A DNA stretch of 64,000 nucleotides from Marivivens sp. (GTDB lineage: Bacteria > Pseudomonadota > Alphaproteobacteria > Rhodobacterales > Rhodobacteraceae). Shown piece after piece: positions 5,535-60,517 of this stretch. The position numbers and the translations under genes were made by a program. Every line of letters begins with the position of its first letter. The first letter of the stretch is position 1. The notes beneath the pieces were generated by a model, which was not told the origin of the DNA, did not search any database, and saw only the letters and a program-made list of their open reading frames with translations. The DNA is taken from NCBI GenBank assembly GCA_017643845.1, contig JAEPMR010000005.1, positions 1-64,000 of the forward strand. The letters run 5' to 3'.

Positions 5535-5684
5535 GGATATCTCCCATCATTATATTCATATTTTAAATTATATTGCCCATACGCGCTTGGCAATCACTCT
5601 GTTCAAGTGCTGCATCTGCGATGTATCCCGTAGCATGCAGAAATGTGTTGCGGCTGAGTGGTCAAATCTCTTACACAAGGTCTG
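5535..5684. other. Divergent AT-rich intergenic region, SoxH-like gene / gcv operon
   Basis: About 150 bases between the start of the SoxH-like gene (minus) and the glycine riboswitch (plus). The part at 5545-5575 is strongly AT-rich (ATATTCATATTTTAAATTATA) and is the natural place for the two divergent promoters. No unambiguous -35/-10 pair or operator was identified by eye. Confidence 0.4.
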
Positions 5685-5835
5685 CATCACGGGAGAACTG
5701 GTTTACCAGTGCCGAAGGAGCAAGCGCCCCGGCAAACTCTCAGGCACAAGGACCGTGATGTACGTAAGACTCTGGAGAGTGGCGCCAAATGCGCCCGCCG
5801 AAGGGATAACGATCTCAGGCTGAAGGACAGAGGGG
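5685..5835 (+). promoter_or_regulatory. Tandem glycine riboswitch (two aptamers) upstream of gcvT
   Basis: Two consecutive copies of the glycine-aptamer core are visible. Aptamer 1 (5685-5760): P1 CATCACGG (5685-5692) pairs with CCGTGATG (5753-5760) and encloses GCCGAAGGAGCAAG, AAACTCTCAGGCA and AAGGACCG. Aptamer 2 (about 5770-5832): P1 CTCTG (5770-5774) pairs with CAGAG (5828-5832) and encloses CGCCGAAGGGATAACG, ATCTCAGG and TGAAGGACAG. The linker is about 9 bases. The element ends about 80 bases before gcvT, which encodes glycine cleavage, so it is expected to turn the operon on when glycine is abundant. Confidence 0.95.
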
Positions 5836-57846: not shown

Positions 57847-58449
57847 CTAATGTCCGCGTAAAATCGGGATCAGTGTCGCCACCAACAAAAGCGCCATCAC
57901 GATATTGAATGTCCGCAACCGCACCGGTGAGGTCAGGAATTTCCGCATCTGCTGGCCGAGGACAGTCCAGAAACTGATTGACGGGATGTTCGTGCAGGCA
58001 AAAACCACCGCCACGATCACCACTTCCCGCATCGTCTGGCTACCCGTATAGGCGCTGATCGCCGTTAATGCCATGAACCATCCCTTCGGGTTCACCCATT
58101 GAAAGGCGGCGGCTTCTAAAAATGTAAATGGCCGCCCGCCGGTTTCGGGCGCATCGGGGGCTTTCGGCGCGGCATTGGCAATCTTCCATGACAGATAGAG
58201 TAGATAGGCGACCGACACCCATTTCATGACCGTCAGTGTCACGGGATAGGTCTCGAAGACCTGCACCAACCCCGCGCCCAGCACCACAATCATAAACGAA
58301 TGTCCCAGCCCCACGCCGAGCATATGCGGCACCGTGCGGCGCACGCCGAAATTGGCGCCGGATGCCATTAGCATCATGTTGTTCGGTCCGGGCGTGATCG
58401 AGCTTACAAATGCAAATCCCATCAGCGCGGTGAGCAATTCCCAAGGCAT
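57847..58449 (-). CDS. LysE/RhtB-family exporter
   Basis: The 200-residue protein has six predicted membrane helices and the N-terminal GFAFVSSITPGPNNMMLMAS motif typical of the LysE/RhtB amino-acid efflux family, plus FQWVNPKGWFMALTA in the middle. The substrate is unknown. Its ribosome binding site GAGGGAGG (58463-58456, spacing 6) is an unusually perfect complement to the CCUCCUCCC loop of the small-RNA hairpins that lie immediately upstream. The gene is also the next coding sequence on the same strand after that array. Confidence 0.9.
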   Translation of the reverse strand: MPWELLTALMGFAFVSSITPGPNNMMLMASGANFGVRRTVPHMLGVGLGHSFMIVVLGAGLVQVFETYPVTLTVMKWVSVAYLLYLSWKIANAAPKAPDAPETGGRPFTFLEAAAFQWVNPKGWFMALTAISAYTGSQTMREVVIVAVVFACTNIPSISFWTVLGQQMRKFLTSPVRLRTFNIVMALLLVATLIPILRGH

Positions 58450-58516
58450 GGAGACCTCCCTCGTGATGCGCCTGCATTTCCGGTTTTTGAGTGAAGGGCA
58501 AGCCCCGCAAACGAAA

Positions 58517-58553
58517 ACGGCGACGACCCAGGGAGGAGGAGGGTCATCGCCGT
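58517..58553 (-). ncRNA. CcsR-type hairpin 9 in transcript order (last)
   Basis: A 13-base stem (58517-58529 with 58541-58553, one C/A mismatch) encloses loop 58530-58540. On the minus strand the stem is followed by TTTCGTTT, so it may also act as the terminator of the array. Confidence 0.8.
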
Positions 58554-58563
58554 TCTTTTTGCA

Positions 58564-58601
58564 CGTCGCAGCACCCAGGGAGGAGGAAGGGGTGCGTCGC
58601 G
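58564..58601 (-). ncRNA. CcsR-type hairpin 8 in transcript order
   Basis: The inner stem GCACCC (58571-58576) pairs with GGGTGC (58590-58595); the outer part is imperfect. The loop contains AGGGAGGAGGAA on the plus strand. It is the weakest stem of the nine. Confidence 0.7.
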
Positions 58602-58610
58602 TTCGTTGTC

Positions 58611-58648
58611 GAGCCGGACCTCCAAGGGAGGAGGAGGAGGGCCGTCTC
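58611..58648 (-). ncRNA. CcsR-type hairpin 7 in transcript order
   Basis: An interrupted stem: GAG/CTC, CGG/CCG and CCTCC/GGAGG blocks separated by single mismatches, closing loop 58624-58635 (AAGGGAGGAGGA on the plus strand). Confidence 0.75.
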
Positions 58649-58654
58649 GTTTTT

Positions 58655-58692
58655 ACGGCGCGCGGCTAAGGGAGGAGGAAGCCCCGCGTCGT
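58655..58692 (-). ncRNA. CcsR-type hairpin 6 in transcript order
   Basis: A 13-position stem (58655-58667 with 58680-58692) with one G/T pair and one C/C mismatch encloses loop 58668-58679 (AAGGGAGGAGGA on the plus strand). Confidence 0.78.
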
Positions 58693-58707
58693 ATTTGCGT
58701 TCCGGTC

Positions 58708-58745
58708 ACCGGATGCCCCTAGGGAGGAGGAGCGGGGCATCCGGT
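58708..58745 (-). ncRNA. CcsR-type hairpin 5 in transcript order
   Basis: A perfect 12-base stem (ACCGGATGCCCC with GGGGCATCCGGT) encloses a 14-base loop containing TAGGGAGGAGGAG on the plus strand. Confidence 0.82.
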
Positions 58746-58753
58746 CCAGAACA

Positions 58754-58787
58754 TCAGCGCTCCAAAGGGAGGAGGAGGAGGCGCTGA
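58754..58787 (-). ncRNA. CcsR-type hairpin 4 in transcript order
   Basis: TCAGCGC pairs with GCGCTGA (58754-58760 with 58781-58787), and TCC/GGA extends the stem with one bulge. The loop is AAAGGGAGGAGGA on the plus strand. Confidence 0.78.
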
Positions 58788-58800
58788 ATTCTTTGGTGCG

Positions 58801-58836
58801 GGCGGTGGCGTCAGGGAGGAGGAAGACGCCACCGCC
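58801..58836 (-). ncRNA. CcsR-type hairpin 3 in transcript order
   Basis: A perfect 12-base stem (GGCGGTGGCGTC with GACGCCACCGCC) encloses the 12-base loop AGGGAGGAGGAA (plus strand). This is the clearest unit of the array. Confidence 0.85.
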
Positions 58837-58842
58837 GCTAGT

Positions 58843-58880
58843 TCGGGCCGCTCCAAGGGAGGAGGAGAAGAGCGGTCCGA
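58843..58880 (-). ncRNA. CcsR-type hairpin 2 in transcript order
   Basis: An 11-position stem (58843-58853 with 58870-58880, one G/T pair) encloses a loop containing AAGGGAGGAGGAG on the plus strand. Confidence 0.8.
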
Positions 58881-58887
58881 TATGTCA

Positions 58888-58919
58888 GGGCGCCATCAGG
58901 GAGGAGGAAGATGGCGTCC
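58888..58919 (-). ncRNA. CcsR-type hairpin 1 in transcript order (first after DUF1127)
   Basis: A 10-position stem (GGGCGCCATC with GATGGCGTCC, one G/T pair) encloses AGGGAGGAGGAA on the plus strand. It begins only 9 bases after the DUF1127 stop codon, so both must share a transcript. Confidence 0.82.
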
Positions 58920-58928
58920 CGATCCGAA

Positions 58929-59147
58929 TTACTTGCCGTATGCAGCTTCCGTCGCGATTGCCTGGATGTTCGAACGGGCAATGCCTAGATCGGCCAGATC
59001 ACGCTCGTTCAGGGCTTCCAGCTCATTCAGTGTGCGCAGGTAAACAGCGCGCTTTGCGAGCCGGTCAGTGATCGAGGCGCGGAGCGTTGCGAAGCGCTCA
59101 ACAAGGTTGAAACCTGAAGCGATGCGGATGTCGTTTGCGTATGCCAT
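58929..59147 (-). CDS. DUF1127 small protein, CcaF1-like
   Basis: The 72-residue basic protein ends with a DUF1127 motif (RTLNELEALNERDLADLGIARSNI), a short helical element present in many stress-induced alphaproteobacterial proteins. In Rhodobacter sphaeroides the equivalent gene product CcaF1 is co-expressed with CcsR small RNAs and acts as an RNA-binding factor in their processing. The same arrangement here, gene then hairpin array on one strand with a 9-base gap, supports the same relationship. It starts MAYANDIRI. Confidence 0.88.
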   Translation of the reverse strand: MAYANDIRIASGFNLVERFATLRASITDRLAKRAVYLRTLNELEALNERDLADLGIARSNIQAIATEAAYGK

Positions 59148-59419
59148 GTGTCTATCTCTCTTTCTCGTCTGGTGCCGGTTTTCGCCGGCCGGGTGAATTT
59201 CGTTAGCGCTCTCTGTGCGCCGTTGATTGGAGAAATAGTCGTTTGCTGCGTTTGCACAATCCGTCGTTTATTCAATGCCGCTATGCAGCAATTGCATGGG
59301 AACTGGCATATGGCCACCCGAAGGTATAGCTGCCTGCCAAAACGCGCGTCAGTTGCTTGTGATTTACTGAAAATCCAGCGAATGTGAGCGCAAAATAAGC
59401 AGTTTGCAAAGGGAACCAT
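59148..59419. other. Divergent control region, DUF1127-CcsR array / mrp
   Basis: These 272 bases separate two divergent genes. On the minus strand TTGTGC and TATTTC, 16 bases apart at about 59259-59232, are a weak candidate promoter for the DUF1127-CcsR transcript; I could not match an RpoH consensus with confidence. A small inverted repeat GCCGG-N6-CCGGC (59174-59189) lies in the DUF1127 leader. AAAGGGAA before 59420 is the mrp ribosome binding site. Confidence 0.4.
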
Positions 59420-60517
59420 ATGCCTCTCACTCGCGAAACCGTGATGGCCGCATTGCTAAAAATCGCATTGCCGGATGGTGGAACGCTCGTCTCGCGGGAT
59501 TTCATTCGGGCGCTTACAATTGAGGGTGGATCGGTGCGGTTTGTGATCGAAGCGCCATCGCCGGAAATTGCCGCGCGGATGGAGGCGATCCGCTTGGCCG
59601 CTGAGTCGTCCGTGCGCGCTTTGCCAGGTGTTGAGTCGGTCTCCGTGGTCCTGACCGCTCATAGCGGCAGCCCGTCCCCGTCGGCCGCACCCGCGTCGGG
59701 GCAGGGGGAGCCGCCCTCTTTGAAGATCGGTCGTCATCCGACGCCGCAATCCGGTCCGGCACCGGTTGCGGGTGTCGATCGCATTCTGGCCATCGGCTCC
59801 GGTAAAGGCGGCGTTGGGAAATCCACGGTTGCCACCAATCTCGCCGTTGCACTGGCCCGCGAGGGGCGTCGCGTCGGGCTTCTGGATGCAGATATCTACG
59901 GCCCGTCACTGCCCAGAATGATGGGCGTCTCCGGCCGTCCTTCTTCGCCGGATGGCAAGCTTATCAATCCGCTGACCGCGCACGGGGTCACGGTCATGTC
60001 GATCGGCCTGATGGTCGATCCTGAAAAGGCGGTCGTCTGGCGCGGTCCGATGCTGATGGGCGCGCTTCAGCAGATGCTGACTCAGGTTCAGTGGGGTGAG
60101 CTGGATGTGCTCCTGGTCGATCTGCCTCCCGGCACCGGCGATGTGCAGCTGACGCTTTGCCAGAAAACCCAAGTGACCGGCGCGATTGTCGTTTCGACCC
60201 CGCAGGATGTCGCGCTGCTCGATGCCCGCAAGGCGCTCGATATGTTCCGCACTCTGAATACACCTGTCCTCGGCCTCATAGAGAATATGTCCACCTTCCA
60301 TTGCCCGCATTGCGGCGAGGAGACACAGATTTTCGGTCACGGTGGCGTGGCGCACGAGGCTGAGGCGCTGGGCCTTCCGCTTCTGGGCGCATTGCCCATC
60401 GATCTCGATACCCGTTTGGCTGGCGATGGTGGCGCCCCCGTCGCTAGTGGCGATGGTGCGGTAGCGGATGCCTACCGCCAGCTGGCTCGTGGGTTGGTCG
60501 CAGGCGGGATGGCCTGA
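59420..60517 (+). CDS. Mrp/NBP35-type iron-sulfur carrier ATPase
   Basis: The 365-residue protein has an N-terminal MIP18/DUF59-like domain (residues 1-80), a Ser/Pro-rich linker and a P-loop ATPase with the deviant Walker A GSGKGGVGKS (126-135). The cluster-binding CPHC motif is at C295/C298. Mrp (ApbC) carries or assembles Fe-S clusters for target enzymes. The N-terminal domain plus ATPase architecture and length are normal. It overlaps the GNAT gene by one base. Confidence 0.94.
   Translation: MPLTRETVMAALLKIALPDGGTLVSRDFIRALTIEGGSVRFVIEAPSPEIAARMEAIRLAAESSVRALPGVESVSVVLTAHSGSPSPSAAPASGQGEPPSLKIGRHPTPQSGPAPVAGVDRILAIGSGKGGVGKSTVATNLAVALAREGRRVGLLDADIYGPSLPRMMGVSGRPSSPDGKLINPLTAHGVTVMSIGLMVDPEKAVVWRGPMLMGALQQMLTQVQWGELDVLLVDLPPGTGDVQLTLCQKTQVTGAIVVSTPQDVALLDARKALDMFRTLNTPVLGLIENMSTFHCPHCGEETQIFGHGGVAHEAEALGLPLLGALPIDLDTRLAGDGGAPVASGDGAVADAYRQLARGLVAGGMA

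Follow-up and report, generated by a model that had tools for sequence, protein, structure and literature searches.

A predicted cuckoo-type RNA array of nine hairpins behind a DUF1127 gene in Marivivens sp.

The locus and its hairpins

The window, that is, the whole 64-kb stretch of Marivivens DNA that was analysed, carries on its minus strand a small DUF1127 gene, a run of nine hairpins behind it and a gene for a LysE-type transporter. The features are listed below in the order in which they are met when the minus strand is read.

59420-60517, divergent from the array operon: NUBPL/Mrp-type ATPase gene, upstream of the DUF1127 gene
59273-59291, minus: promoter dyad E1, TTGCTGCATAGCGGCATTG, LsrB/VtlR-like and PhaR-like, the sole match without mismatch in its own genome
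59244-59260, minus: promoter element E2, ATTGTGCA-N3-GCAGCA, likewise the sole match without mismatch in its own genome
59254-59259, minus: putative -35 element TTGTGC, inside E2
59232-59237, minus: putative -10 element TATTTC, placed by position only, from the C(C)CATGTT-like consensus of relatives
58929-59147, minus: DUF1127 gene of CcaF1 type, 72 aa, from the list of open reading frames; PF06568, 33.3 bits (cut-off 23.3)
58885-58922, minus: hairpin 1, loop 58899-58907; minimum free energy (MFE) fold; C-G to A-U compensatory change in G295
58843-58880, minus: hairpin 2, loop 58857-58865; MFE fold and loop match
58798-58838, minus: hairpin 3, loop 58814-58822; MFE fold and loop match
58754-58787, minus: hairpin 4, loop 58767-58775; fold and loop; U-A to C-G compensatory change in G295
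58699-58752, minus: hairpin 5, loop 58722-58730; fold and loop match
58654-58693, minus: hairpin 6, loop 58670-58678; fold and loop; G-C to A-U compensatory change in G295
58610-58649, minus: hairpin 7, loop 58626-58634; fold and loop; A-U to G-C and U-A to C-G compensatory changes in G295
58567-58601, minus: hairpin 8, loop 58578-58586; fold and loop match
58509-58556, minus: hairpin 9, loop 58531-58539; 16-bp stem, then TTTTCGTTT (58509-58517); fold and sequence reading
57847-58449, minus: LysE-type transporter gene, behind the array and on its strand

A motif search of the window finds nine copies of CCTCCTCCC between positions 58531 and 58907, all on the minus strand and spaced 42-52 bases apart, with five of the eight spacings not being multiples of three; the first loop begins 21 bases after the DUF1127 stop codon. 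The nine CCUCCUCCC loops stand against a mean of 0.49 and a maximum of 2 in 100 shuffles of the window. When the RNA of positions 58929-58500 is folded, nine separate hairpins form, every one with the 9-mer in its loop (9/9), and the fold energy of -210.5 kcal/mol compares with -148.9 (sd 5.0) for shuffled sequences (z = -12.2), none of the 100 being as stable. An identical set of nine hairpins, with 11-16 pairs each, was recovered by a second method, a local-folding script. Loop search, shuffles and fold thus bear out what a preliminary description of the locus had reported, namely nine hairpins with identical loops on the minus strand, and the coordinates it had given, 58517-58919, are correct to within a few bases. 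Its statement that the stems are unrelated is nearly right, apart from a slight similarity of the 5' arms, which within the array agree at a mean of 4.7 of 13 positions, shuffled arms agreeing at 3.9 (sd 0.26), so that a trace of common origin is left among the stems. Tandem repeat detection on the array of the window found none.

Hairpin 9, together with the TTTTCGTTT tract whose first bases are shared with its stem, is likely to form an intrinsic terminator. It is absent from the list of the terminator scan, which shows two plus-strand sites and has a loop limit of 8 bases; a sigma-70 promoter scan gave no match near the array. The assembly as a whole, 3.19 Mb in 137 contigs and 89% complete, contains 36 copies of CCTCCTCCC: nine make up the array, and the other 27 are scattered and not above the reversed control (32) in number.

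Two further observations concern the surroundings of the array. The LysE-type gene directly behind it has GGGAGG before its ATG (58447-58460, minus), six bases complementary to the loop, and GGGAGG-ATG sites are not enriched in the window (9 versus 6.6 expected; 21 of 100 shuffles reach 9). At the Rfam gathering level the sole match in the window is a glycine riboswitch, with its aptamer at 5680-5765 (plus strand; 63.4 bits).

Covariation, family membership and array size among relatives

An orthologous array with eight exact loops and one variant is present in a genome of the same genus (G295, locus L040). Covariation was tested on these two sequences, by mapping the predicted pairs of the window on the alignment with G295: 115 pairs are unchanged, 3 carry one-sided changes, 5 carry double compensatory changes and 4 are broken, one of the latter sitting in a weak outer helix of the fold, outside the hairpins. 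When the same substitutions are placed randomly on paired positions, 0.48 double compensatory and 9.6 broken pairs are expected, and of 2000 such placements none reaches five of the former and none has as few as four of the latter. The preliminary description had called the array selected RNA and had named stems that do not covary among relatives as the result that would speak against it; the stems do covary, which supports the view that the array is a real RNA under selection, as far as comparison of these sequences can tell. Six further substitutions fall in loop positions, one of them in hairpin 2, whose loop in G295 is degenerate (CCTCCTACC), and five in hairpin 8, where they move the loop by one base. 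Since the loops of some relatives are degenerate, not every hairpin need be functional.

The same changes bear on a coding explanation, in which GGGAGGAGG would be a plus-strand run of repeated codons. An ORF of 98 aa on that strand does overlap part of the array, but the changes between the window and G295 follow base pairing and the spacing of the motif is uneven with respect to codons; the explanation, hardly credible at all, was rejected on these two grounds.

The locus is supported as one of CcsR/cuckoo type (CIN1) by its arrangement, a DUF1127 gene with CCUCCUCCC hairpins directly behind it. As expected of CIN1, these hairpins lie immediately 3' of a short DUF1127 gene, and the fold and sequence reading of hairpin 9 indicate a terminator at the 3' end; as in cuckoo RNAs, CCUCCUCCC is found in nine of nine loops, and the stems are variable yet paired. 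The first loop lies 15-40 bases past the DUF1127 stop codon (median 19) in 73 of the 80 loci taken from the best 80 of 527 relatives. The earlier assignment to a CcsR/cuckoo-type array behind a DUF1127 gene finds support in the PF06568 match, in the best Rfam matches and in the loci of relatives. The proposed covariance-model search agreed with it in part: the best matches of the array are indeed ar14 (56.0 bits, hairpins 1-3) and CcsR1 (31.0 bits), and both stay under their gathering scores (58.8 for RF02344 ar14, 65.3 for RF02791 CcsR1), so that the array is filed under neither RF02791 nor RF02344. The CcsR1 model itself looks narrow, because at E<=0.001 it matches 243 of 295 Rhodobacteraceae genomes (against 1 of 14 control genomes, Thermus composti), yet reaches its cut-off in just 10 of the 295.

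Three described systems resemble the locus. The CcsR1-4/ccaF1 locus of Rhodobacter (Cereibacter) sphaeroides likewise consists of a DUF1127 gene followed by CCUCCUCCC hairpins, with conserved promoter elements and a 3' terminator; the stems of the window differ from it, and the array of the window scores under the Rfam CcsR1 cut-off. The cuckoo RNA family (Reinkensmeier and Giegerich 2015, as presented in the available parts of PMC4504443 and PMC10253847) shares the fixed loop CCUCCUCCC, the variable stems and the adjacency of hairpins, although its members are described as having 2-4 hairpins per RNA (PMC4504443, in part) and nine stand here in one run. ar14/NfeR1 of Sinorhizobium is a three-hairpin unit with a loop identical to that of the window, and its LsrB site (TGCA-N6-GCAT, according to the accessible text of PMC10746234) is also present at E1. 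Unlike the window, it has three hairpins, is described as an sRNA with its own sigma-70-type promoter and, in the portions of the literature available, apparently does not lie behind a DUF1127 gene.

The preliminary description had further regarded the array as an expanded version of the R. sphaeroides locus, setting four RNAs against nine hairpins and thereby comparing like with unlike, a comparison that is corrected here. In CcsR RNAs there are two hairpins apiece, a number given for the R. sphaeroides RNA RS0680a (PMC3927594, section 2.7, as far as this source was available), and the Rfam CcsR1 model likewise comprises two hairpins in 83 positions. Cereibacter johrii and C. azotoformans have eight hairpins each and exactly four CcsR1 matches (E<=0.001), the first of which alone passes the Rfam cut-off in either species. 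Because four CcsR1 matches span eight hairpins, and in view of PMC3927594, CcsR1-4 are read as four RNAs of two hairpins. The array of C. johrii is then followed by a stable terminator-like hairpin in which CCTTCCCC replaces the loop motif, and the nine hairpins of the window are therefore read as eight plus a terminator, the ninth differing from its C. johrii counterpart in keeping an intact CCUCCUCCC loop.

In the best 80 of 527 relatives, 78 of 80 DUF1127 loci have an array of at least two hairpins (sizes 2-15), with at least nine in 40 loci and more than four in 69; the median over all 80 loci is 8.5. The survey allows one mismatch in the loop, and its sizes lean to close relatives of the query, since they are drawn from the best 80 of 527; a few may be too low, because 3 of the 80 loci have fewer than 500 bases past the DUF1127 stop codon, and two loci scored 0 had at least one hairpin each in a later count. 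With nine hairpins the window is mid-range, and expansion over a locus of the R. sphaeroides type was ruled out, given eight hairpins in C. johrii and C. azotoformans and a median close to nine. The locus is a normal member, of ordinary size, of an already described kind of regulatory RNA.

In a survey of 295 Rhodobacteraceae genomes, one per genus, an exact-loop pair at the right distance occurs in 218 (reversed control mostly 0, at most 4), and at least eight such pairs on one strand occur in 17, including that of the window, these being sums per genome and not per array. With 26 exact loops, the array of locus L018 (genome G165) is the largest seen, and much of it is made up of a 140-base unit with three hairpins, present in 6.5 copies at 97% match; two further genomes, G051 and G025, carry identical or near-identical two-hairpin repeats. 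The survey shows highly variable copy number in these arrays, with growth by recent tandem duplication. As the repeats of G051, G025 and L018 are near-identical and the window is free of tandem repeats, stem diversity looks like a matter of age since duplication, not a requirement. Selection of the stems to be mutually non-complementary was rejected: non-cognate arms give a mean of -10.3 kcal/mol against -8.0 when shuffled, so that their pairing is not worse, and identical hairpin pairs are tolerated in G051.

Repeated palindromes and recent tandem copies in some relatives are also what would be expected of a REP-type structural repeat family or of a mobile repeat devoid of regulatory function. 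Such an origin is very improbable, since the loop is constant and the stem is not, compensatory changes separate the window from G295, and the array stands behind a DUF1127 gene in 78 of 80 loci (best 80 of 527 relatives); it was rejected because the assembly holds a single array.

Outside the family, a class-wide survey for exact loops found a pair in 15 of 289 genomes, namely that of the window, three of its family and eleven others (mostly single pairs); it does not show absence elsewhere, because few genomes per family were covered and variant loops are missed. Three genomes of the same class (G304, G437 and G535, family f10) have one exact-loop pair each, 42-52 bases apart, and these may be genuine two-hairpin cuckoo RNAs.

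Promoter elements and phasin hairpins

Upstream of the DUF1127 start codon, E1 is conserved at no fewer than 14 of 19 positions in 78 of 80 loci and E2 at all of its 14 positions in 73 of 80 loci, C. johrii included, against 0 of 80 shuffled regions in both cases (best 80 of 527 relatives). In a count anchored on the array, 67 of 78 loci from the same set have 12 bases between the two elements. Within its own genome, E1 has 9 matches with up to three mismatches (none in the control) and E2 has 38 with up to two (9 in the control).

E1 resembles the sites of two kinds of regulator, as judged from loci that all belong to the best 80 of 527 relatives. At least 12 of the 15 positions of the published VtlR motif CAATGCAGCCATGCA (PMC12595884, in part) agree in 75 of 78 loci, and in 0 of 78 shuffled regions. 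The LsrB motif TGCA-N6-GCAT, from work in which LsrB activates NfeR1, an ar14 RNA (accessible sections of PMC10746234), is present in the window and exact in 33 of 74 loci, the form TGCR-N6-GCAT occurring in 68 of 74; GCAT-N3-TG-N3-T (from the available part of PMC7486931) fits merely 5 of 74. The R. sphaeroides PhaR site, given as CTGCNNNGCAG in the part of PMC12542648 that was available, is exact in 51 of 74 loci and near in 73 of 74, with one mismatch in the window. E1 therefore fits both the LsrB/VtlR and the PhaR consensus and is a candidate site for either or both, and because its conserved flanks exceed what PhaR needs, an LsrB/VtlR site or an overlap with PhaR is favoured.

E1-like sites also occur elsewhere in the genome of the window. 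The second-best of them (one mismatch; G000:C126:10222-10240) precedes a thiolase gene of phaA type. Seven more sites carry three mismatches, and the one examined (G000:C86:4896-4914) precedes a phasin-like gene beside phaC and phaR; this phasin scores 21.6 bits, under the Pfam cut-off of 24.9. Between this dyad and the start codon lies a copy of CCTCCTCCC (L212 1950-1958; G000:C86:4949-4957), where the predicted local fold shows no clear cuckoo hairpin. A search of 16 genomes for the dyad TGCTGCANNGCRGCA gave 89 matches (1 in the control; palindromic matches counted twice). At ten sites chosen from 25 the neighbouring genes were scanned: seven of them gave a phasin match (five over the cut-off), one a thiolase match and one a cytochrome c match, and the tenth gave none.

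The dyad also led to cuckoo-like hairpins at another place, behind phasin genes. A phasin search gave 57 matches in 52 of 61 genomes, from which 30 loci were fetched (L248-L277); 28 could be anchored and two were dropped. In the 130 bases after the phasin stop codon, CCTCCTCCC is exact in 5 of 28 loci and within one mismatch in 16, all 16 copies sitting in a predicted hairpin of five pairs or more, against 0.2% exact and 1.7% within one mismatch in random 130-base stretches of the same loci (loop match alone, hairpin not required). These cuckoo-like hairpins are a tendency and not a rule, as 12 of the 28 loci have two or more mismatches; in the genome of the window the phasin gene is followed by a variant loop with two. 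Read by eye, the sequences often show a second, terminator-like hairpin behind the first, and all 28 loci have CTGCNNNGCAG ahead of the phasin gene (a raw count, taken without a control). Cuckoo-like 3' UTR hairpins of phasin genes were also noted at L225, L226, L227, L229 and L235.

A literature search for a link between phasins and cuckoo RNAs, or between DUF1127 and PhaR, returned no description of phasin 3' UTR cuckoo hairpins in the accessible portions of the sources. In S. meliloti, tetracycline raises phaP1 as well as DUF1127 genes, and oxidative stress likewise raises phaP1 and one of the DUF1127 genes (PMC12218461, available part). Repression of the sRNA MmgR by PhaR is reported in PMC12542648, again in part. 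The available text of PMC12218461 makes no mention of phasin or of anti-Shine terms, that of PMC8625941 none of phaP and that of PMC12542648 none of DUF1127. Promoter dyad and phasin hairpins look like newer side findings.

Proposed mechanism and wider meaning

The locus is very probably of the CIN1 type, with a DUF1127 gene, eight cuckoo hairpins and a terminator hairpin on one transcript that would be processed into translation-damping RNAs. This proposal starts from observed anatomy, covariation, synteny, promoter conservation, spread of copy number and recent tandem duplications in relatives; for transcription, processing, targets, Hfq dependence and dose it leans mostly on work in R. sphaeroides, and these steps would run as follows. 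The single transcript would carry the small CcaF1-like gene, eight cuckoo hairpins right after its stop codon and a ninth that also serves as terminator, and stress would most likely bring about transcription of this precursor from the conserved promoter. The single-stranded linkers would then be cut by RNase E, with the DUF1127 protein adjusting the cleavage, and RNAs of one to three hairpins would be set free. The CCUCCUCCC loop of each, a mimic of the ribosomal sequence that recognises mRNAs, would be expected to pair with a GGAGG-type Shine-Dalgarno sequence and so to damp translation of the target mRNA. Hairpin number would mainly set the dose; arrays would grow through tandem duplication of small groups of hairpins, after which the stems may diverge through compensating changes, the loop staying constant. 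The role of a multi-copy anti-Shine-Dalgarno regulator, put forward in the preliminary description, would be in line with the literature, and a link of the CcsR RNAs to C1 metabolism is reportedly known from R. sphaeroides papers.

In R. sphaeroides, ccaF1 and CcsR1-4 form one transcript with an RpoHI/RpoHII promoter and a 3' terminator, and the CcsR RNAs mature through RNase E, with CcaF1 playing a part (both from the accessible sections of PMC10253847); they are degraded by PNPase and depend on Hfq (PMC7866481, in part), and flhR mRNA is a target (PMC8307010, in part). Accounts of what the DUF1127 protein does disagree: surplus CcaF1 reportedly disturbs the maturation of CcsR RNAs (available part of PMC8307010), and other DUF1127 proteins are reported to work through protein binding, not RNA binding (PMC12501420, in part).

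A different function would be mainly cis-acting, the hairpins stabilising and terminating the 3' UTR of the DUF1127 mRNA and the fixed loop serving as a binding site for a protein, for example the DUF1127 protein or Hfq, instead of as antisense. The array does sit at the position of a 3' UTR and ends in a terminator-like hairpin, and CcaF1 binds RNA in R. sphaeroides (PMC10253847, in part), but the CcsR RNAs of that species are cut free and target flhR mRNA (PMC8307010, in part), and single cuckoo-like hairpins also follow phasin genes, where DUF1127 is missing. We regard a purely or mainly cis-acting role as rather unlikely, and release of trans-acting, translation-damping RNAs as the preferred reading.

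A broader and decidedly tentative idea is that the cuckoo hairpins of Rhodobacteraceae could form an output layer linked to carbon storage and redox state. The dyad of the array operon would be read by PhaR, the polyhydroxybutyrate sensor, and/or by a LysR regulator of LsrB/VtlR type, the mRNAs of phasins with a PhaR box would each have a cuckoo-like hairpin at the end, and the array, with 2 to 26 copies, might be a dosage device that changes by tandem duplication and determines how far translation is damped as storage or redox conditions shift. Worth following are the variation in copy number, the dyad of the promoter and the hairpins behind phasin genes. The variable copy number (2-15 in 78 of the best 80 loci; 26 in G165), together with tandem duplication, makes the question of dose directly testable, and the dyad together with the hairpins in phasin 3' UTRs would, if confirmed, link anti-Shine-Dalgarno RNAs to the control of carbon storage.
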